Source: Parazoarcus communis
GTDB lineage: Bacteria > Pseudomonadota > Gammaproteobacteria > Burkholderiales > Rhodocyclaceae
Length of the DNA: 64,000 bases
Reading direction: 5' to 3'
NCBI RefSeq assembly: GCF_003111645.1
Contig: NZ_CP022187.1
Location: 1,922,001-1,986,000 of the forward strand
Each line of letters starts with the position of its first letter. Within the stretch, counting starts at the first letter, position 1. A model generated the notes under the pieces. That model worked only from the letters and a program-made list of their open reading frames with translations. It was not told the DNA's origin and ran no database searches. A program made the position numbers and the translations under genes. Shown in pieces: positions 4,444-15,296 of the stretch.

Positions 4444-4459
4444 GTATCAGCGCTGATAC
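4444..4459. promoter_or_regulatory. 16-base perfect palindrome, candidate activator site
   Basis: GTATCAGCGCTGATAC is a perfect 16-base inverted repeat about 190 bases upstream of the sigma-54 promoter at 4650. Enhancer-binding proteins usually bind inverted repeats 100-200 bases upstream of such promoters, so this is the best candidate site for the VpsR-like activator encoded at 10111-11442. Assignment is by position and symmetry only. The 422-base gap 4304-4725 otherwise holds no gene; it also contains a short CTGTACAG palindrome near 4568. Confidence 0.45.
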
Positions 4460-4649
4460 ACATTCGGTTTCAAGGCTGCGTTCGCCGCTCGTACGGGCCT
4501 CAGGCCGCGTTTGAATGCCATGAGAATGCGAATCACGGCCCCGTGCCCCCTGAGTCTGTAACAAACCTGTACAGATCACGCCTGTCCGCGCCGCGATTCT
4601 CACCCGAATTTTCGCAAAACCTCCATATATCTCAGCCACTTGAAGAGGA

Positions 4650-4665
4650 TGGCACGAGAGCTGCT
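4650..4665 (+). promoter_or_regulatory. Sigma-54 (-24/-12) promoter
   Basis: TGGCACGAGAGCTGCT matches the sigma-54 consensus TGGCACG-RNNN-TTGCW at all but one defined position, with the invariant GG (4651-4652) and GC (4663-4664) exactly ten bases apart. Transcription would start near 4676, about 50 bases before the first gene of the secreted-protein operon at 4726. A sigma-54 activator with an intact GAFTGA loop is encoded 6 kb downstream in the same locus. Confidence 0.8.
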
Positions 4666-4725
4666 GATGATGAACCCGAGGTGGGACCTCTTGCCCCGCC
4701 CTCAAACGGCTCAGAGGAGGAAATC

Positions 4726-6414
4726 ATGAAACTCAGTCTGCTATCAGGTGCAATCGCACTGGCGTTCGGATTTGCCACGCAGGCCATGGCCAACCCGACC
4801 AATACGGTCAATGAAGCAACTGACTCAAACACGCAGACGGCTACGGCGACGTCGACGCAAGGCGGCACCGGCCCACAGGCGAATGAGTACGCGACAGCGA
4901 AATGGGACAGCAGCACGTTCACGGACAGCAGCAACAACTCCGATAACAGCAACAACTCGGACAACAGCAATAACTCCGACAACAGCAATAACTCCGACAA
5001 CAGCAACAATTCGGACAACAGCACCAATGGCATGGCGATGGCCAAGGACTACGGCAATGCGGCCGCGGTCAATGGCGCGACAGCCTCTTCGGCGATGACC
5101 GACTCCTTCAATACGACGAAGGCGATCGCGATGACGAAGCTCGACGGCATGGTCACCAAGATCCAGGTTCATGGCTTGGGCAACCACGCAATGAACATGG
5201 GTAGCGTCAATGGCGGCGACGGTGGCAAGGCTTACGGCGGCGACGGCGGCAGCGCGACTGGCGGCAATGCCAGGGGTGCCAACGGTGCCGACGGCGGCAA
5301 GGCCTATGGCGGCAATGGCGGTGATGGCGCCTCCGGCGGCAGTGCAACAGCGGGCAACGCCGACTCCGGCTACGTGAAAGGCGGCAGCGGTGGCGACGGC
5401 GGCCTGGCGAAGAACGCCACGGGCGGCAACGGTGGCGAAGCCTCGGCAACGACAGGTAACGCACGCGCAAACGACTCCGCGACAGGTGGCAACGCCATGG
5501 GCAAGGTCGGTGGCGCGACGGCATCCGGCGGCAAGGCCTATGCCAAGGACAGCGCCTCTTCGGGCAGCGCATCGGGTAGCGGCGGCAACGGCATGGCGTC
5601 CGACAAGAGCTATGCAGGCGGCGCAATGGCCGGCAGCAAGGCCGGCGGCAGCGGCGCCGATTCGGGCTCTGCAGACGCAGGAAGCTCCTGGGCCAAGGCT
5701 GCTGATGGCACCGCCCGGACACGTGGCGAGGGCAACGACCCGGCTGACGTAGCCAACCGTGCCACCTCGACCAGCGGTTCTGGCGGCACGTCCGGCGCAG
5801 CAACCTCGACCGGCGGCACGTCCGGCGCAGCGACCGCAAGCGGCGGTACCAGCACGCAAACCGCGACGGCCACGGCTGGTGCAGGCACGGCGACTGGCGG
5901 TGCAGCCACGTCCGGCGGCGCAACGGCCACGGCAGGCGCAGCAACCGCGACGGCGGGTACCAACACCTCGACCGGCGGTGCGGCGAGTTCGAGCGCCACG
6001 GCGACCTCGGGTAACAGCTCGGCCAACGGTGGCGCAGGCGGAATGGCCTCCAACACCGGCGGTGCTGGCGGTGACGGCGGTGCAGCCACCAGTGGCAGCG
6101 CGAGTGGCGGTGCAGCGACCGGCGGTGCTGGCGGTGCTGGCGGCTCCGGCCAGGGCGGTAGCGGTGGTGCTGGCGGTGCTGGCGGCACGGTGACCGCAGG
6201 TGCGGCAACCGGTGGTGCTGGCCAGGGCGGTAACGGCGGCGCTGGTGGTGCTGGCGGTGCGGTGACGGTGGATGCGGGACACTTCAACCTGTCCAACTCC
6301 ATCAGCGGCAGCTTCACCAACGGTGCTGGCATCATCCTCAATTCCCAGAACACCGGGATTGGTTCGCTGGTGCAGCAGAGTGCCAACGTCCAGGCCAACC
6401 TGACCCTCAGGTAA
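4726..6414 (+). CDS. Secreted Gly/Ala/Ser/Asn-rich repeat protein, candidate fibre subunit
   Basis: A 562-residue low-complexity secreted protein, first gene after the sigma-54 promoter, with a strong GAGGAGG ribosome site. Residues 1-21 are a signal peptide ending QAMA. Residues about 66-101 are hexapeptide repeats (DNSNNS-like). Residues about 160-515 are dominated by GG, GGA and GGD motifs with Ala, Thr and Ser, with no cysteine seen. The last 45 residues differ: a VTVDAGHFNLSNSISGSF block followed by an N/Q-rich segment (LNSQNTGIGSLVQQSANVQ). It has no recognised domain. Its position beside a C39 peptidase and a coiled-coil/barrel protein suggests the major exported structural protein of a Fap-like system, but canonical FapB/FapC repeats are not visible. 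The reverse strand is also open because of codon bias. Confidence 0.7.
   Translation: MKLSLLSGAIALAFGFATQAMANPTNTVNEATDSNTQTATATSTQGGTGPQANEYATAKWDSSTFTDSSNNSDNSNNSDNSNNSDNSNNSDNSNNSDNSTNGMAMAKDYGNAAAVNGATASSAMTDSFNTTKAIAMTKLDGMVTKIQVHGLGNHAMNMGSVNGGDGGKAYGGDGGSATGGNARGANGADGGKAYGGNGGDGASGGSATAGNADSGYVKGGSGGDGGLAKNATGGNGGEASATTGNARANDSATGGNAMGKVGGATASGGKAYAKDSASSGSASGSGGNGMASDKSYAGGAMAGSKAGGSGADSGSADAGSSWAKAADGTARTRGEGNDPADVANRATSTSGSGGTSGAATSTGGTSGAATASGGTSTQTATATAGAGTATGGAATSGGATATAGAATATAGTNTSTGGAASSSATATSGNSSANGGAGGMASNTGGAGGDGGAATSGSASGGAATGGAGGAGGSGQGGSGGAGGAGGTVTAGAATGGAGQGGNGGAGGAGGAVTVDAGHFNLSNSISGSFTNGAGIILNSQNTGIGSLVQQSANVQANLTLR
4921..5028 (+). repeat. 18-base in-frame tandem repeat array
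   Basis: Five to six copies of an 18-base unit (AACAGCAACAACTCGGAC-like, with synonymous variation) encode DNSNNS hexapeptides inside the Gly-rich protein. Because the unit is a multiple of three, slippage would change length without breaking the frame. Confidence 0.8.
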
Positions 6415-6487
6415 GCCTGAAAACGATGCCGGGTGGCTCGTCCAGCACCCGGCATCCATGCACGATATGCAGCATAGGAGGCTGACC

Positions 6488-6862
6488 ATGAGACCCCATC
6501 TGTCCATGATCGCCCTGGGCATTGCACTGGCTGTGACATGCAGCTCGCCTGCCTCGGTGCACGCAGAAGTATTCGTGCCGACCGTCACCGACGAGACGCG
6601 CAACGATTCGATCGGTCTTGGAAGCGCCCCCCTTGACGAGAGCGTGCTGGAGAACCAGCGGGGCGGCTCGGATCTGCATCTGAGCGAGATTCGCGCTGTT
6701 GGCAACGTCAGCGAGGTGGAATCGCACAACGTCATCACCGGCCACAACATTGTTTCGGACGGTGCGCTTGCAGGCGCATCCGGCATGCCGATGTTCATTC
6801 AGAACAGCGGTAATGGTGTGCTGATCCAGAACGCAGTCATCCTCAATGTCGAGGTGAAGTAA
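6488..6862 (+). CDS. Small secreted protein with RGG motif and N/Q-rich C-terminus
   Basis: A 124-residue protein with an AGGAG ribosome site just upstream and a signal peptide of about 26 residues ending SVHA. Residues 49-60 read LDESVLENQRGG, a double-glycine-leader-like motif nearly matching one in the gene at 7589. The remaining 64 residues include NVITGHNIVSDGAL and two IQN motifs (FIQNSGNGVLIQNAVI), a pattern resembling amyloid-forming repeats. It sits six bases upstream of the C39 peptidase ribosome site, so it is probably co-translated and a candidate substrate. No named family recognised; the role as minor fibre component or nucleator is inference. Confidence 0.7.
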   Translation: MRPHLSMIALGIALAVTCSSPASVHAEVFVPTVTDETRNDSIGLGSAPLDESVLENQRGGSDLHLSEIRAVGNVSEVESHNVITGHNIVSDGALAGASGMPMFIQNSGNGVLIQNAVILNVEVK

Positions 6863-6874
6863 AGGAGCATGACG

Positions 6875-7576
6875 ATGAAACGCATCGTGCTCCGTTCAGG
6901 CCTTTTGATCGTCGTGGCGATAGTGCAATCACTTGCCGCCACGACGGCCTTCTCCGACCAGCTGAGATTTCACGCTCCGATGGGCGGCCAGCTGACGGTG
7001 CCCACCGTCAGCCTGAAGGAAGCACGTTTTCTGTCGACCCTGCGCCAGCAGTACGACTTCAGTTGCGGCTCGGCGGCGGTCGCCACCCTCCTCACCCACC
7101 ACTACGATCAATCGGTTGGCGAATCCAGAGTGTTCGAGGTCATGTACGAACACGGCAACCAGGAGAAGATCCGGCGTGAGGGGTTTTCGATGCTTGACAT
7201 GAAGCGCTACCTCGATCATCTCGGCTATCGCGCCGAGGGGGTGGAGGCAACGCTCGATCAGCTGGCGTTGGCCTCCGTGCCCGCCATTGCACTGATACAG
7301 GAGAACGGTTACGCACACTTCGTTGTCATCAAGGGCGTGCGCGATGGCAAGGTGCTTCTGGGCGACCCGGCGCTCGGCACGCGCGTGATGAAGCGCCAGG
7401 CGTTCGAGAAAATATGGGTCAACAGCATCCTGCTGGTTGCACGTAACCGTGTCGGCATGGCCCGCTTCAACGACGAATCCGACTGGCGCGTGCAGCCAAG
7501 CGCGCCGATTGCACGCGGTCTCGACCGCAACATGGCAGACGTGCAGTTGCTTCGTCGCGGCCCCTGGGATTACTGA
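6875..7576 (+). CDS. Periplasmic C39-family cysteine peptidase (FapD-like)
   Basis: A 233-residue stand-alone C39 peptidase with a signal peptide (ending near TAFS), so it should act in the periplasm rather than on the cytoplasmic face of an ABC exporter. The catalytic set is visible: Gln58/59 and Cys64 in QQYDFSCGSAA, His148 in YAHFVV and Asp164 in LLGDPALG. C39 enzymes usually cut after Gly-Gly in leader peptides, and both neighbouring proteins carry an RGG motif. FapD of the Fap amyloid operon is this type of protein. I chose the ATG at 6875 because AAAGGAGC lies seven bases away; the ATG at 6869 is too close to it. Confidence 0.85.
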   Translation: MKRIVLRSGLLIVVAIVQSLAATTAFSDQLRFHAPMGGQLTVPTVSLKEARFLSTLRQQYDFSCGSAAVATLLTHHYDQSVGESRVFEVMYEHGNQEKIRREGFSMLDMKRYLDHLGYRAEGVEATLDQLALASVPAIALIQENGYAHFVVIKGVRDGKVLLGDPALGTRVMKRQAFEKIWVNSILLVARNRVGMARFNDESDWRVQPSAPIARGLDRNMADVQLLRRGPWDY

Positions 7577-7588
7577 GGACACCGCGCC

Positions 7589-8683
7589 ATGAAGAATTCA
7601 ATGAACGGACGCACCTCGGCCCTGATCACGACGGTCGCCACGCTCACTGCCTTGTGCGCAAACCTTGCACAGGCGCTGGGCGAGGAAGAAGAGCTTTCTT
7701 CAGTAATGGCCGGCGACGGCGTCACCAGCATCATGGACGTGACGAGCGTTGCCACGCGACAGGGCTTTCATCCGGCAAACTGCAGCAGACACGAAGTTCC
7801 GCCGGCAGAGTTGCTGGCACTGGCCGACTGGCCGCTGGACGATACCCCCACCTGCACCCAGGGCCGCGCCGTCGCGCGCGCTGCGCCTGTCGTGGAGGCG
7901 ACGATCCGCCCCGTCCGGGCAATGGCAGAGGTCGTTGAAGCGAGCATTCTCACCCCGCGTGAGGTGCTCGACCGCTACGGCGACACGCCCTTGCCCCTGG
8001 CTGCAGCGACGCCTGAGCAAGGGAAGCTGAACGCACGCAGCGGGCTGGCACGTGGCGATGAGGCTGGCAGAATCGCAGCCGTGCCGGCGCCGACCGCAGC
8101 AGGCTTGGCTCCCCCGCCCCCGGTGTCGGCGCCGGTCGCCGTCGCCTCGGTGGTGGAGGACAGGACCGCCGGCGAGCTGCCGGTCGCCATCCCACCGCTG
8201 ATGAAAGCGGAGAAGGCTGATCGCACCATCCATCGCCCCTCACCCGAGACGCTGGTACTGCGTCGCGCGATCCGGCTTGCGGAGGCGCCGGCCGTTGATG
8301 AGAACCGGCTCGACAAGCTGCGTGGCGGCTTCGAGACACCGTCGGGGCTGAGGGTGTCGTTCGGCATCGAGCGCGCGGTGTATGTGAATGGCGTACTCAG
8401 CAGCGTGACCAGCGTCAATCTTGCCGATCTGGGCAACATGACCGGACGCGGACTGCCCGAAGGCAGCACACTGGCCGTGATCCAGAATGGTCCGAACAAC
8501 GCGTTCATCGCCAGCGGCCTGAACAACAACGCGCTGGCCACGGTGATCCAGAACTCGCTCGACAATCAGAACATCCGCGCGGTGACCACGATCAATGCGT
8601 CGGTCAATAGCGTGGAGATGCTGCGCAGCGCGCAGATGAACAGCTCGATGCGCGACATGATGGTGCAGTCCCTGCTGCGCTGA
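7589..8683 (+). CDS. Secreted protein with Pro/Ala-rich linker, RGG motif and N/Q-rich C-terminal domain
   Basis: A 364-residue protein that follows the C39 peptidase after 12 bases. It has a signal peptide (ending about residue 31) and an Ala/Pro/Val-rich, charged middle region to about residue 235. A VDENRLDKLRGG motif ends at Gly247, and a conserved-looking C-terminal domain of 117 residues starts FETPSGLRVSFGIERAVYVN. That domain contains IQNGPNNAF and VIQNSLDNQ motifs like those of the small protein at 6488. It may be cleaved after Gly247 by the C39 enzyme, releasing the N/Q domain. It occupies the position expected for a FapE-like component; that label is inference. A bidirectional terminator follows at once. 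Confidence 0.65.
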   Translation: MKNSMNGRTSALITTVATLTALCANLAQALGEEEELSSVMAGDGVTSIMDVTSVATRQGFHPANCSRHEVPPAELLALADWPLDDTPTCTQGRAVARAAPVVEATIRPVRAMAEVVEASILTPREVLDRYGDTPLPLAAATPEQGKLNARSGLARGDEAGRIAAVPAPTAAGLAPPPPVSAPVAVASVVEDRTAGELPVAIPPLMKAEKADRTIHRPSPETLVLRRAIRLAEAPAVDENRLDKLRGGFETPSGLRVSFGIERAVYVNGVLSSVTSVNLADLGNMTGRGLPEGSTLAVIQNGPNNAFIASGLNNNALATVIQNSLDNQNIRAVTTINASVNSVEMLRSAQMNSSMRDMMVQSLLR

Positions 8684-8713
8684 AACGCGGCCGTCGCGCA
8701 CACGGCACAAAGC

Positions 8714-8754
8714 AAAAAAGACAGGCAGTGCAGGGTGGCACTGCCTGTCCTTTT
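8714..8754. terminator. Bidirectional intrinsic terminator
   Basis: A 12-base perfect stem (GACAGGCAGTGC, 8720-8731, pairing with 8738-8749) with a six-base loop, an A-run on the left and a T-run on the right. It separates the convergent secreted-protein operon and the beta-barrel gene. Confidence 0.9.
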
Positions 8755-8768
8755 CTTTGCAGCCTGAT

Positions 8769-10067
8769 CTAGAGCGTGATTGGCATGCGCAGGGTGAGTT
8801 GCAGATCGGGGGTGTCGTTGGTGACGCCGACACCGAGCGAGAGATTGACCGTATTGCCGGAGTTCAGGCGGTGGGAGTAGCCCAGCAGCAGGGTGCCGAG
8901 TTGCACCCGGACCGAACCCGGCGCGGTGCTGCCATTGATCTTGACCTTGCCCACCGACTGGTGGTCGTAGCCGATGCTGAAGGACGAACGGTCGTTGAGG
9001 GCAAGCCCCATGCCGAAGTTGAAGCCGATCACCCCGCCCGGCGCAACGTCGCCAACCAGGATGTCGCCGCCGTCGGTGTTTGCCTTCACGTTGCTGCGCT
9101 TGAAGCTGTGCTGATAGCTGATGCCGCCGAAGAACACTGCGGGATCGGAGGGAATCAGCACCGTCAGCCCCGGCGTGAGGGTATAGAAGCCGGAACCCGT
9201 GGGCAGCTCGCTTTGAAGGCCGGTGCCGCGTCCGCCAGGCAGCGTGTAGTTGGTCTTGACCTCGAAGGGGTCCTTGCCGGTGCGCGTCTTGAAGCGCAGC
9301 GAGGCGATGTAGTACGGGCTGTCGCCACCACCATCATTGAGCTGGTAACGACCGGTCAGTTCGACGTCGCCGATGCCGCTGCCGTCGGCGTCGAACACGC
9401 TGTCGACCGCAGTACCGGACGCAATCTCGCGGCTGATGCTGGTGTCGGAACGATAGACCCAGGGCAGCTTGGCCTCGAGCTCGAAGCGGTTGGTGATCCC
9501 GCGCCGGACGGTGAGCGCGGCGGTGAAGGTGTTGCGCTTGACCTCGCGCACGTCGATCAGGCCGATCAGGATGGCAGGAATCACGGTGTAGCCGACCAGC
9601 GCGATGCGGTTGCTGGACGAGTAGGCATACTGCAGCGACGGCTCGAGCACCCACTTCCCCGGCGCAGTGAGCACGCCGGGGGTCTCGAAGATCGGCGCGA
9701 TCTCGCGCGACCGCGTGTCGCGTGACGGGTCGGGCGCCTGACCCACGGGCTGCTGCCCGCCGCGCTGGGCCATGGTCGCCGGGACGTTGGCCTCAGCAGC
9801 AGGCACGGTGTCCGGCCCACGCCCGCGAACCTCTTCAAACCCGAGCGATCGGCGCAACTCGGACAGCGCGGCTTCCTGACGGGCGAGATTGGCCTTGAGG
9901 GCGTCGATCTCCGCGTTCTGCTCGGTGATCTGCTGCTTCATCCGCAGCATGTCTGCGCCCCCTGCCTCCGTATCCGCGGCCGCGCCCAGTCCCGGCAGTG
10001 CTAACAGCATGATGCCTGCGAAGCCCTGCCCCAGGGCCAGGGCAATCCGTGTCGGCTTATTCTTCAT
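8769..10067 (-). CDS. Outer-membrane coiled-coil/beta-barrel protein (FapF-like)
   Basis: A 432-residue exported protein. Residues 1-31 are a signal peptide, residues about 38-75 a coiled coil (heptads through QQITEQNAEIDALKANLARQ), residues about 80-120 a disordered linker with an RGG at 102-104. Residues about 125-432 are alternating beta strands typical of a porin-like barrel, ending in RMPITL. This coiled coil-linker-barrel order is that of FapF, the pore exporting Fap amyloid subunits. The gene has a GGGAGGAG ribosome site and starts 43 bases after the sigma-54 activator, with which it is probably co-transcribed, opposite to the four secreted proteins. General barrel annotations such as 'transporter' would fit the barrel part only. 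Confidence 0.75.
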   Translation of the reverse strand: MKNKPTRIALALGQGFAGIMLLALPGLGAAADTEAGGADMLRMKQQITEQNAEIDALKANLARQEAALSELRRSLGFEEVRGRGPDTVPAAEANVPATMAQRGGQQPVGQAPDPSRDTRSREIAPIFETPGVLTAPGKWVLEPSLQYAYSSSNRIALVGYTVIPAILIGLIDVREVKRNTFTAALTVRRGITNRFELEAKLPWVYRSDTSISREIASGTAVDSVFDADGSGIGDVELTGRYQLNDGGGDSPYYIASLRFKTRTGKDPFEVKTNYTLPGGRGTGLQSELPTGSGFYTLTPGLTVLIPSDPAVFFGGISYQHSFKRSNVKANTDGGDILVGDVAPGGVIGFNFGMGLALNDRSSFSIGYDHQSVGKVKINGSTAPGSVRVQLGTLLLGYSHRLNSGNTVNLSLGVGVTNDTPDLQLTLRMPITL

Positions 10068-10110
10068 GGTCTCCTCCCAGCAAAGTCGCGGTGCCCGTCA
10101 CCGCCATCGG

Positions 10111-11442
10111 CTACACGATAATTTTCAGTCGATCGATCATCCGGTAGAGCGTGACGCGCGACACCCCGAGCTGTCGGGCGGTCGCGGACACATTGTTCTG
10201 GTAGCGCTTGAGACTGGTCTCGATCATTTCGCGCTCGACGGTGTTCCGCACCTCGTCCAGTGTGGGCTCCGGCGCCTCGGCCTCGGCCGCAGTGAGTCCG
10301 AGATCTGCGGCGCTGATGAAGCGGTTCTCGCTCATGATCATGGCGTGCTGCACGCGATTGATGAGCTCTCTCACGTTGCCCGGCCAGTCGTAGGCAGCCA
10401 TCGCGTGAATGGCTTCGGTGCTGAAGCCCCTGACCTGGTGGCTGCGCAGGTCCTGGTTGCGGTCATAGATGACCTGGGCGAGCAGTTCGATGTCGTCCTT
10501 GCGCTCACGCAGCGCCGGCACCACCAGGTGCAGGACGTTGAGGCGATAGAACAGATCCTCGCGGAAACGGCCTTCGGCCACCGCCCGGTCGAGATCGACA
10601 TGGGTCGCGGCAATCACGCGCACGTTCATCTTCAGGCGCTCGGTGCCGCCGACGCGCACGATGGTTTTTTCCTGCAGGAAGCGCAGCAGGCTGGCCTGGA
10701 GGTCGAGCGGGAGGTCGCCGATCTCGTCGAGGAAGAGCACGCCTCCGTTGGCGGCCTCGATGGTGCCGATCTTGCGCTGATGCGCGCCGGTGAAGGCCCC
10801 GCGCTCGTAGCCGAACAGTTCGGAGTGAATCAGGGACGCGGGAATCCCGCCGCAGTTCATCGCGACGAAGGGTTTGGAGGCGCGGGCCGAATGCCGATGA
10901 ATGGCCGAAGCAACCAGCTCCTTTCCGGTGCCGGACTCCCCACCGATCAGGACGGGCGCATCGACTGCGACGATCTTGTCGATCTGCCGGTAGAGCTTGA
11001 GCATCTTGGCGCTGCGCCCGGTCATGCCGAAGCGACCTTCATCATCCTCCTGCGGCGTGACCTTTTCGAACAGGCTGGCCTTGCCGTGGGCATGGCCGAG
11101 CGTCATCCGCAGGCGATCGTGCTCGAGTGGAAGTGAGTGGAAATCGTTGAAATTGCGCCGGAGCAGCTGGGCAAGCACCTCGCTGTCGAGCAGGCTGCGA
11201 TCGAGAACGGCAATCCACTCGACGTCGTAGCGTGACAACAGCCCCTCAAGCTCGCGCAAGGGCCAGGAGTCCGCCGCGTCGAACGCAACCAGACCGACTG
11301 AAAATTCGCCGCCCGTCAATAACTCGCGGGCACACGCCAGGGTTGGCGCAACTTCGAACGACCATCCCGACAACTGCAAACCATCAAGGGCCGCGCTTAC
11401 CAAACCAGCACGATCCAGCAACAACCCTTTGCGTCGAGCCAT
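10111..11442 (-). CDS. VpsR-like sigma-54-dependent transcriptional activator
   Basis: An enhancer-binding protein of about 443 residues. The N-terminal 120 residues form a receiver-like VpsR-type regulatory domain. The AAA+ domain shows GGESGTGKE (Walker A), an intact GAFTGA sigma-54 contact loop, LFLDEIGDL (Walker B) and an arginine-rich REDLFYRLNVL sensor region. A C-terminal Fis-type helix-turn-helix (SATARQLGVSRVTLYRMI) binds DNA. I prefer the ATG at 11442, preceded by AGAGG, over the upstream TTG at 11487. VpsR of Vibrio responds to c-di-GMP and controls biofilm matrix genes. The near-perfect sigma-54 promoter at 4650 is the obvious target. The barrel gene follows it on the same strand. 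Confidence 0.85.
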   Translation of the reverse strand: MARRKGLLLDRAGLVSAALDGLQLSGWSFEVAPTLACARELLTGGEFSVGLVAFDAADSWPLRELEGLLSRYDVEWIAVLDRSLLDSEVLAQLLRRNFNDFHSLPLEHDRLRMTLGHAHGKASLFEKVTPQEDDEGRFGMTGRSAKMLKLYRQIDKIVAVDAPVLIGGESGTGKELVASAIHRHSARASKPFVAMNCGGIPASLIHSELFGYERGAFTGAHQRKIGTIEAANGGVLFLDEIGDLPLDLQASLLRFLQEKTIVRVGGTERLKMNVRVIAATHVDLDRAVAEGRFREDLFYRLNVLHLVVPALRERKDDIELLAQVIYDRNQDLRSHQVRGFSTEAIHAMAAYDWPGNVRELINRVQHAMIMSENRFISAADLGLTAAEAEAPEPTLDEVRNTVEREMIETSLKRYQNNVSATARQLGVSRVTLYRMIDRLKIIV

Positions 11443-14446: not shown

Positions 14447-14505
14447 AAAACCAAAGGGGTCAGAGTCGTTTGAAAGTTTCAAACGACTCTGACCCCTTTG
14501 GTTTT
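14447..14505. repeat. Palindromic repeat copy 2 (REP-like), upstream of the RAYT gene
   Basis: A 59-base palindrome with 29-base perfect arms around a single G (14476). The core is the same GGGGTCAGAGTCGTTTGAAA as in the other copies; outer bases are AAAACC/GGTTTT as in copy 4. The left edge is duplicated in tandem: TGAAAACCAAAG at 14433-14444 and 14445-14456. It ends 51 bases before the RAYT start codon. Confidence 0.95.
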
Positions 14506-14556
14506 TCTCCAACATCCGGATAGCATTCTCCATATATGCCAAATGAGAACCATGCG

Positions 14557-15273
14557 ATGCCGAGAAAACCAAGACTCTCGATCCCGGGGGCACCACAGCA
14601 TGTCATCCAGCGAGGTAACAATCGACAGGCCATCTTTGTTGTCGATGAGAATTATCACCAGTTCATCGAGATGCTCTCGCTCGCCGCGGACAAGCATGAT
14701 TGCCAGATTCACGCCTATGTGCTGATGACCAACCACGTGCACTTGCTCGCCACCCCGAGCACCGAGGATGGGATCGGCAAGATGATGCAGTCCCTCGGTC
14801 GCCGCTACGTGCAGTACTTCAACCTCCGAAACACACGCACCGGCACCTTGTGGGAAGGACGCTACAGGGCGACCTTGATCGATACCGAGCAGTATCTCTT
14901 TGCGTGCATGCGCTATATCGAACTCAATCCGGTTCGTGCCGGGCTGGTGAAGCGGCCGGGCGAATATCGGTGGTCCAGCTTCAGGTGCAACGCATTTGGC
15001 GCCTTGGACAAGTTGGTCACGCACCACCCCCAGTATCTGTCACTGGCCAACGTTTCAGCCGCGCGCCAACGAGCCTATCGGGCAATGTTCGATGGGCAGA
15101 TTGAAGACGCGTCGGCGGACGAGATTCGCCGGGCGACCAACAGCGCATGGGTGCTTGGCGGTGTCGAATTTGCCGAGACGGTTGTCTCCCGGCTCAATCG
15201 TCGGGTCACACCCGTGGGGCGAGGGGGTGACCGACGATCGCCGAGCTTTCAGAAACGGATCAAACGACTCTGA
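14557..15273 (+). CDS. REP-associated tyrosine transposase (RAYT)
   Basis: A 238-residue single-strand DNA transposase of the Y1/TnpA_REP family, thought to mobilise and spread REP palindromes in the chromosome. Visible motifs are the N-terminal MPRKPRLSIPGAPQHVIQRG block, the HUH motif in TNHVHLL, and the catalytic-tyrosine helix containing ACMRYIELNPVRAGLV. The start at 14557 matches the usual family N-terminus; an in-frame ATG at 14536 would add seven residues. A full palindrome sits upstream and its last codons (IKRL) and stop codon are supplied by a half palindrome. It overlaps the convergent formate dehydrogenase gene by 14 bases. It looks intact. Confidence 0.95.
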   Translation: MPRKPRLSIPGAPQHVIQRGNNRQAIFVVDENYHQFIEMLSLAADKHDCQIHAYVLMTNHVHLLATPSTEDGIGKMMQSLGRRYVQYFNLRNTRTGTLWEGRYRATLIDTEQYLFACMRYIELNPVRAGLVKRPGEYRWSSFRCNAFGALDKLVTHHPQYLSLANVSAARQRAYRAMFDGQIEDASADEIRRATNSAWVLGGVEFAETVVSRLNRRVTPVGRGGDRRSPSFQKRIKRL

Positions 15274-15296
15274 CCCCTTTGAAGACCCCTTTGAAA
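15260..15296. repeat. Half palindrome (REP-like copy 3) shared by two gene ends
   Basis: Twenty-one bases of the right arm (CAAACGACTCTGACCCCTTTG, 15261-15281) without a left arm, followed by a 12-base tandem duplication of its edge (GACCCCTTTGAA at 15272-15283 and 15284-15295). The plus-strand TGA at 15271-15273 ends the RAYT gene and the minus-strand TGA at 15262-15260 ends the formate dehydrogenase alpha gene. Confidence 0.9.

Follow-up and report, generated by a model that had tools for sequence, protein, structure and literature searches.

Double-glycine leaders cleaved by C39 peptidases are best known from bacteriocins, in which hydrophobic residues at positions -12, -7 and -4 precede a Gly-Gly pair. 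A C39 peptidase paired with an outer-membrane barrel occurs in the Fil system, which we take to be one of Acinetobacter, and in the Fap amyloid system (fapABCDEF). For the latter, FapD is described as required for FapC secretion, its substrate being called undetermined in the same 2018 review (PMC6173800). FapE was the sole Fap protein for which mass spectra lacked the N-terminus, with the target of FapD left open (PMC5557850; PMC6173800), and according to a 2025 review FapE and the periplasmic region of FapF are the presumed targets of FapD (PMC12822426). Here we analyse a Fap-related locus in a stretch of 64,000 nucleotides of Parazoarcus communis (contig NZ_CP022187.1, positions 1,922,001 to 1,986,000 of the forward strand), the whole of which is called the window. 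The locus is made of two converging units (Table 1), with four genes for Sec-type proteins (the open reading frames ORF1 and ORF2, a C39 peptidase and ORF4; 4726-8683, forward strand) facing the genes of a coiled-coil barrel and of a sigma-54 activator (8769-11442, reverse strand). All of these genes had been named in a first-pass annotation of this DNA, and every one of them proved to be present. Judging from its sequence, the locus is a conserved sister system to Fap with putative fibre proteins of its own, and not Fap itself, because trees set its barrel and peptidase apart from bona fide FapF and FapD, with a support of 100, once long-branch rows are removed.

The exporter pair is by sequence FapF/FapD-like and homologous to both proteins. 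The barrel matched the NCBIfam FapF model over residues 43-429 of its 432 (1.4e-46), thus covering the coiled-coil part, as well as the solved FapF chains of the PDB (7e-35), and the peptidase matched the FapD model (1.3e-41) and Pfam PF03412 (1.2e-23). The scores were 159 bits for a curated cut-off of 700 in the case of FapF and 142 bits for a cut-off of 330 in that of FapD; the fap loci used for comparison also remained below the FapF cut-off, with 456 bits at most, and none of the sampled genomes reached the curated cut-offs of FapE or FapF. The active site of the peptidase is complete and its activity can be predicted, residues Q60, C66, H150 and D166 being kept in 47 of 47 rows from loci of the window's kind (hereafter type 2), in 13 of 13 Fap rows (12 and one with a gap at Q60) and in the three Fil-like rows. 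The first-pass annotation had treated the combination of a C39 peptidase and such a barrel as sufficient to recognise Fap. This is refuted by the non-Fap hits of the published FapD and FapF hidden Markov models (HMMs), amounting to 96% and 69% (PMC3792158), and by the reported co-localization of fapD and fapF homologues in five further phyla (PMC6173800). In three loci (L116:7900-9093 on the reverse strand, L094 and L095, where L numbers designate loci and G numbers genomes), FapF-type barrels had no C39 neighbour detected in the fetched stretch.

The position relative to Fap was studied with a reference set of 14 fap loci (L083-L093 and L117-L119), all from outside Pseudomonas. Twelve of these show FapB/FapC repeats, and the FapB, FapC and FapE models recognised fap loci wherever they were applied; the other two, L085 and L091, owe their place in the set to their barrel score (402 and 351 bits), with L085 having also a FapE match. 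Loci L035, L041, L043 and L049 were left out of the trees. In a first barrel tree that included the Fil-like and lone barrels, neither type 2 nor Fap formed one side of a branch, because the three lone barrels mentioned above fell inside the groups. The first C39 tree required three changes for type 2, with a Fil row inside it, and a weak branch put the Polymorphobacter sequence (L123) together with Fap and Fil. The groups were nearly, though incompletely, separated in these first trees. In clean trees, which leave out the Fil, lone and L125 rows, and L085 too for C39, type 2 and Fap each occupied one side of a branch with a support of 100, for barrel and peptidase alike, the barrel tree carrying a warning of long branches meeting at L123. 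The first-pass annotation had suspected a distinct system, and this is borne out by the clean trees. It had also held that a grouping outside the FapF and FapD clades would speak against its proposal; such a grouping is what the clean trees gave, so that the Fap-like character of the locus stands but its assignment to Fap does not.

These trees bear directly on the possibility that the locus is an ordinary, strongly diverged fap operon, with its own versions of FapB, FapC, FapD, FapE and FapF. The homology of barrel and peptidase, the FapE-like position and leader of ORF4 and a C-terminal unit resembling the Fap repeat in register (see below) would all be explained in this way, but the separation from bona fide Fap with a support of 100 would not. 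The HMM searches that the first-pass annotation had suggested point in the same direction, since the curated NCBIfam models (NF058557/NF058558 for FapB/FapC and NF058559 for FapE) had no match in 17 ORF1, 23 ORF2 and 26 ORF4 proteins; with 0 of 17 ORF1 proteins matching the FapB or FapC model, they support the earlier description of the structural protein as atypical. Moreover, a type-2 barrel with ORF2 and a fap locus lie together on contig C11 of genome G159 (about 247000-250100 and 336200-338300, some 90 kb apart), meaning that type 2 and Fap are not simple replacements of each other. We consider a diverged fap operon to be quite improbable.

The combination of ORF2, C39 peptidase, ORF4 and barrel was found in 48 loci, with the window counted, and these are partly dependent (L106 is nearly identical to L030). 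One genome scan yielded 27 loci with a related barrel, and in 24 of them it was adjoined by ORF2, the peptidase and ORF4, a conservation by which the locus is not a chance grouping. The three incomplete ones are L041, where ORF2 is only a fragment at the contig edge, L035, a contig of 6.4 kb, and L043, where the match lies at a contig end; a regulator homologue was linked in 21 of the 27, and the loci in which a cassette part or the regulator is missing lie either on short contigs or at the edge of a contig. A second set of 39 stretches, chosen for FapF-type barrels, had the full cassette in 20, most of the others being fap loci. Among 150 relatives, 22 had a barrel match and 16 of these were type 2. 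In 370 genomes of the class, of which 74 matched the FapF model, ORF2 was detected in 16 (one weakly), each belonging to these 74, and 14 genomes matched the FapE model. By these counts the type-2 system seems to be roughly as common as Fap in the class as sampled.

The carriers of the cassette comprise Rhodocyclales, Oxalobacteraceae, Cupriavidus (the four genes being present in Cupriavidus metallidurans CH34), an alphaproteobacterium and Photobacterium, the latter with the four genes, an inverted barrel and one extra gene. In the alphaproteobacterium, a Polymorphobacter, the order from ORF1 to the barrel is unchanged and four of the five genes are annotated as hypothetical. An ORF1-like protein was present in 21 of 23 loci examined (partial in two of the 21), and in the two loci without it fewer than 450 bases separate the start of ORF2 from the contig end. 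The first-pass annotation had pointed to the inverted barrel gene linked to the regulator; this is correct for the window but is not a hallmark of the family, the barrel being inverted in 24 and on the same strand as the peptidase in 20 of the 44 fetched full-cassette loci. In the genome to which the window belongs, the FapF-type barrel, ORF4 and the C39 domain have one match each. No title or abstract among the literature matches listed, a coverage that leaves subscription papers and preprints outside, describes the cassette.

Two features had been missed by the first-pass annotation, namely double-glycine leaders in ORF2 and ORF4 and a unit shared by ORF1 and ORF2. As regards the former, both proteins present a hydrophobic residue at -12, Leu at -7 and RGG, in the register of C39 double-glycine leaders, and they look like substrates of the C39 peptidase. 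In 46 ORF4 windows aligned on RGG, some of them possibly placed on an earlier RAG, Leu, Ile, Val, Met or Phe accounted for 98% at -12, 98% at -7 and 74% at -4, their share at the remaining positions between -11 and -5 being 0 to 15%. Among relatives, 36 to 284 residues separate the ORF start from the RGG, and thus it is the motif that is kept, not the length of the part preceding it. The register was found in 42 of 45 ORF2 proteins, with the same hydrophobic residues reaching 79% at -12 and 38% at -4 (Gln in the window's protein) and Leu at -7 in 42 of 42; Arg at -3 and Gly at -2 were fixed by the choice of windows, and the second Gly position was occupied by Gly in 36, Arg in 5 and Met in 1. 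L54, R58 and G59 are invariant in 23 aligned ORF2 proteins. The strict pattern (-12, -7 and RGG) was present in 44 of 45 ORF4 and 34 of 44 ORF2 proteins, versus 37 of 3147 other ORFs, which include spurious frames, and 5 of the 469 background ORFs with a signal-like N-terminus.

The same register was recognised in 13 FapE proteins of the 14 fap loci, where its last residues are RG[RK] and the next one is F or Y; positions -12 and -7 fitted in 13 of 13 and -4 in 12, in a set chosen by a pattern that fixes the -7 region, RG[RKG] and the next residue and leaves -12 and -4 free. FapA-like and FilA-like proteins have a similar leader by eye, the count of 5/5 for the FapA-like set being no evidence, since that set was chosen by a pattern containing the leader. 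Two other candidate targets were considered. The barrel, a target suggested in print for FapF, is not favoured here because leader patterns are nearly absent in 66 barrels (0/66 for the strict pattern, 4/66 and 2/66 for two looser ones), an RGG having been noted in the linker of the window's barrel, and the alignment of ORF1 shows no conserved leader.

Given such leaders, the peptidase could be imagined to mature ORF2 into a secreted peptide of the signal or bacteriocin type, the barrel acting as an uptake or release channel and ORF1 being unrelated. Likeness to bacteriocin systems is found in the -12/-7/-4 register, the Gly-Gly pair and the C39 fold (PDB 7n87, 6.9e-07). In addition, FapF resembles the hydrophobic uptake channels of COG4313 (PMC6173800). 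Nevertheless, the peptidase of the window is free and has a signal-like start, its presumed substrates have their own signal peptides, including the Sec-type N-terminus of ORF2, and the genome has one C39 domain and no C39-ABC transporter that we could find. ORF4 carries the same leader, the end of ORF1 is common to ORF2, and an ORF1-like protein precedes ORF2 in most of the loci examined, all of which makes the peptide explanation highly improbable.

The unit shared by ORF1 and ORF2 lies at their C-termini, and sequence comparison makes its common descent with the Fap repeat likely. A profile of ORF1 C-termini (E<0.1) finds 39 of 45 ORF2 proteins and 0 of 61 C39 peptidases, 67 barrels, 54 regulators, 46 ORF4, 17 FapB/C and 13 FapE proteins. 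The spacing G-x8-G-x6-[NQ], looked for after the likeness to the Fap repeat had been seen, occurs in the C-termini of 34 of 41 ORF1 and 42 of 45 ORF2 proteins versus 7-8% in shuffles, and is to be compared with G-x4-N-x3-G-x6-N in FapC and FapB. The hhalign probabilities for unit and Fap repeat were initially 0.84% for ORF1 and 9.56% for ORF2, and in register they were 40.7% for both sets, 14.3% for ORF2 and 11.2% for ORF1, a result favoured by the selection of the windows with G-x8-G-x6-[NQ]. Column shuffles reached the unit score in 0 of 100 cases with both sets, 1 of 100 with ORF2 and 4 of 100 with ORF1. One ORF2 profile was built without L097, L100 and L102.

ORF1 itself had no NCBIfam or Pfam match at E<=1 and was aligned with 16 relatives of 38-78% identity, in which the signal region, a short middle block and the C-terminus are the conserved parts. 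Its initial description as a Gly/Ala/Ser/Asn-rich protein with DNSNNS repeats applies to the window but not to the relatives in general, many of which have other repeats in place of the array. The body is Gly-rich in most of them (G 0.21-0.35) and Asn-rich with little Gly in L096, L098, L099 and L100. The homologue of L098 (3359-4267, forward strand), with 303 residues, four copies of the unit and no Gly-rich body, possibly stands midway between Fap-type repeat proteins and the ORF1 of the window; other ORF1 proteins have at most one match to the unit profile, at the C-terminus. A poly-glycine II bundle for ORF1 was considered and dropped, a literature search having found no evidence either way.

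Such a protein might also be exported and processed by the same machinery and yet form a non-amyloid, soluble or loose Gly-rich coat or matrix, with the unit working as a secretion or anchor signal. The variable, mostly low-complexity ORF1, predicted to be unfolded (see below), and its single C-terminal unit outside L098, reminiscent of a sorting tag, are in line with this idea. ORF2, however, carries the unit and little else after RGG, four units in a short ORF1 are what would be expected of a fibre subunit, and the spacing of the unit matches that of the Fap amyloid repeat. We regard the coat alternative as unlikely.

Sigma-54 control, by a VpsR-like activator, had been proposed in the first-pass annotation and is likely for the four-gene unit, as indicated by the promoter-like site in front of ORF1 and by the VpsR (2.3e-11), sigma-54 (1.7e-70) and HTH_8 (1.2e-10) domains of the regulator. 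With gene starts set by rule, 31 of 41 loci had a site of at least 10/12 between -39 and -114 relative to ORF1, and three of the ten loci without a site of that strength had one of 9/12 in the same range. The VpsR domain was present in 5/5 type-2 regulators tested and in 1/4 regulators near fap loci. Nonetheless, this control probably does not distinguish the locus from Fap: 7 of 13 fap loci had sites of 11 or 12/12 near their first gene (L083, L089, L091, L093 and L117-L119; in L091 the site falls 7 bases within the assumed ORF, and in L093 at -332), and 12 of 14 fap stretches had a match to the sigma-54 activator profile. Sigma-54 control is probably a trait of the wider kind, not specific of type 2, and may be general for fap.

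Taken side by side, type 2 and Fap have in common the coiled-coil barrel, a C39 peptidase whose active site is identical in both, a FapE-like leader protein next to it, exported subunits rich in Asn and Gln, linked sigma-54 activators (12/14) and strong -24/-12 sites (7/13). They differ in that curated models detect neither FapB nor FapC in type 2 and no FapA is recognised, ORF1 and ORF2 replacing the fibre proteins and usually bearing a single repeat-like unit each, in the leaders, which end in RGG in type 2 and in RG[RK] in Fap, and in the separate branch of barrel and peptidase. The four-gene unit leaves no gene for a FapA chaperone; two FapA-like proteins of fap loci had no NCBIfam model match, and fapA is often absent in Fap systems too (PMC3792158). 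The likeness to Fil is seen in the matches of the C39 peptidase to the FilB model (4.8e-35) and of the barrel to the FilC model (1.6e-16), which are much weaker than those to FapD and FapF, and the Fil sequences differ further by their long branches in the trees and by other cargo genes. A Fil-like locus (L120:9021-12151, reverse strand), from a genome of the same taxonomic order as the window, has a C39 peptidase, a barrel and a secreted protein whose leader-like start, VDDEVLSAQTGQ, is similar to the type-2 leaders and ends in TGQ. Curli (CsgA/CsgB/CsgG) follow a similar plan of major subunit, nucleator and outer-membrane exporter, the comparison being one of plan and not of homology.

Table 1. 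Features of the Fap-related locus (positions in the window)
Feature	Position	Strand	Description
Sigma-54 (-24/-12) promoter-like site	4650-4665	+	TGGCACGAGAGCTGCT, 11/12 to TGGCACGNNNNTTGCW; 0/300 shuffles reach score
ORF1	4726-6414	+	562 amino acids; Gly/Ala/Ser/Asn-rich secreted protein, proposed main surface/fibre protein
DNSNNS-coding tandem array in ORF1	4924-5027	+	18-nucleotide period, 5.8 copies, 88% matches
ORF1 C-terminal unit	6292-6399	+	Homologous to ORF2 end; profile match
ORF2	6488-6862	+	124 amino acids; small secreted protein, conserved, proposed nucleator-like subunit
Predicted C39 leader of ORF2	6632-6667	+	LDESVLENQRGG; cut expected after second Gly
ORF2 C-terminal repeat unit	6746-6847	+	G-x8-G-x6-[NQ] register
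C39 peptidase	6869-7576	+	235 amino acids; secreted-type, FapD-like; Pfam and NCBIfam matches
ORF4	7589-8683	+	364 amino acids; FapE-like secreted protein; gene placed behind C39, like FapE; no solved relative at E<=1
Predicted C39 leader of ORF4	8294-8329	+	VDENRLDKLRGG; RGG in 44/45 relatives
Perfect inverted repeat between converging units	8720-8749		GACAGGCAGTGC...GCACTGCCTGTC, read in sequence by eye
Barrel	8769-10067	-	432 amino acids; FapF-type coiled-coil outer-membrane barrel
Regulator	10111-11442	-	443 amino acids; VpsR-type sigma-54 activator, GAFTGA loop intact

Signal peptides of the proteins in Table 1 were called by eye together with a simple hydrophobicity rule, and the inverted repeat separating the two units is a probable two-way terminator. 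Elsewhere in the window, a gene at 14536-15273 lies between copies of a palindrome (CAAAGGGGTCAGAGTCGTTTGA and its complement; 14447-14505 and 15260-15281) and reads like what we take to be a REP-associated tyrosine transposase (RAYT); it is likely to be a RAYT gene with its own REP elements. Another perfect palindrome is located at 914-967.

The best explanation for the locus, which we consider fairly probable, is a system of secretion and assembly related to Fap and equipped with fibre proteins of its own. What the sequences show of it are the gene content, the conservation, the residues of the active site, the sister position to FapF and FapD, the leader register, the shared unit and the sigma-54-type site. 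In the model that we propose, the VpsR-type activator and sigma-54 would drive the transcription of ORF1, ORF2, the peptidase gene and ORF4 from the site upstream of ORF1, and the four products, as well as the barrel, would cross the inner membrane by the Sec pathway. The C39 peptidase, once in the periplasm, would cut ORF2 and ORF4 after RGG, releasing their prosegments, and the FapF-type barrel would export unfolded ORF1 together with mature ORF2 and ORF4. Outside the cell, ORF2 would nucleate ORF1 through the common unit, with ORF4 in the role of FapE, and the long Gly/Asn body of ORF1 would form a fibre or matrix that covers the cell surface.

Several points weigh against this explanation. 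Regulator activation, Sec transit, cleavage, export and fibre formation are steps that we infer. AlphaFold2 gave no confident fold for ORF1 (mean predicted local distance difference test score, pLDDT, of 34.6) and a weak one for ORF2 (55.0), in which a helix at residues 51-57 stands beside R58-G59-G60. An HMM of the Fap repeat found 0 of 41 ORF1 proteins and gave 8.1 bits or less on ORF2, and to the absence of curated Fap model matches in ORF1, ORF2 and ORF4 it should be added that an ORF4 HMM found none of the FapE proteins of fap loci at E 0.01. The leader region of ORF4 aligned with that of FapE with an hhalign probability of 59%, over 36 columns only. Three of 45 ORF2 proteins are without leader (L097, L099 and L100) and 9 of 44 are without RGG as such; regarding the Fap ending, we know of no C39 enzyme established to accept Arg or Lys before the cut, as FapE would demand. 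The regulator was not found in the fetched stretches of Cupriavidus (L122), Polymorphobacter (L123), L099 and L100.

The observations can be brought together in one joint reading, in which type 2 would be a second fibre-export system roughly as common as Fap in the sampled genomes, and RGG and RG[RK] would form a recognition code of the whole FapD/FapF superfamily, its periplasmic C39 peptidases cutting subunits exported by Sec at a leader of the bacteriocin type. The substrate of FapD would be FapE (perhaps also FapA) at that site, and the Fap repeat and the ORF1/ORF2 unit would go back to one ancestral element, reduced in type 2 to a single copy at the end of a Gly/Asn body that evolves fast. 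This is put forward tentatively, as somewhat less likely than not. Under the Fap-related system favoured here, the value of the family is that it predicts where FapD-type peptidases cut: a sister family with a canonical double-Gly leader in two proteins gives an exact predicted cut site in both systems. It also supplies a reading for cassettes annotated as hypothetical, such as that of Polymorphobacter, and the exporter pair may, by this reading, be a platform that is reused for quite different surface proteins.

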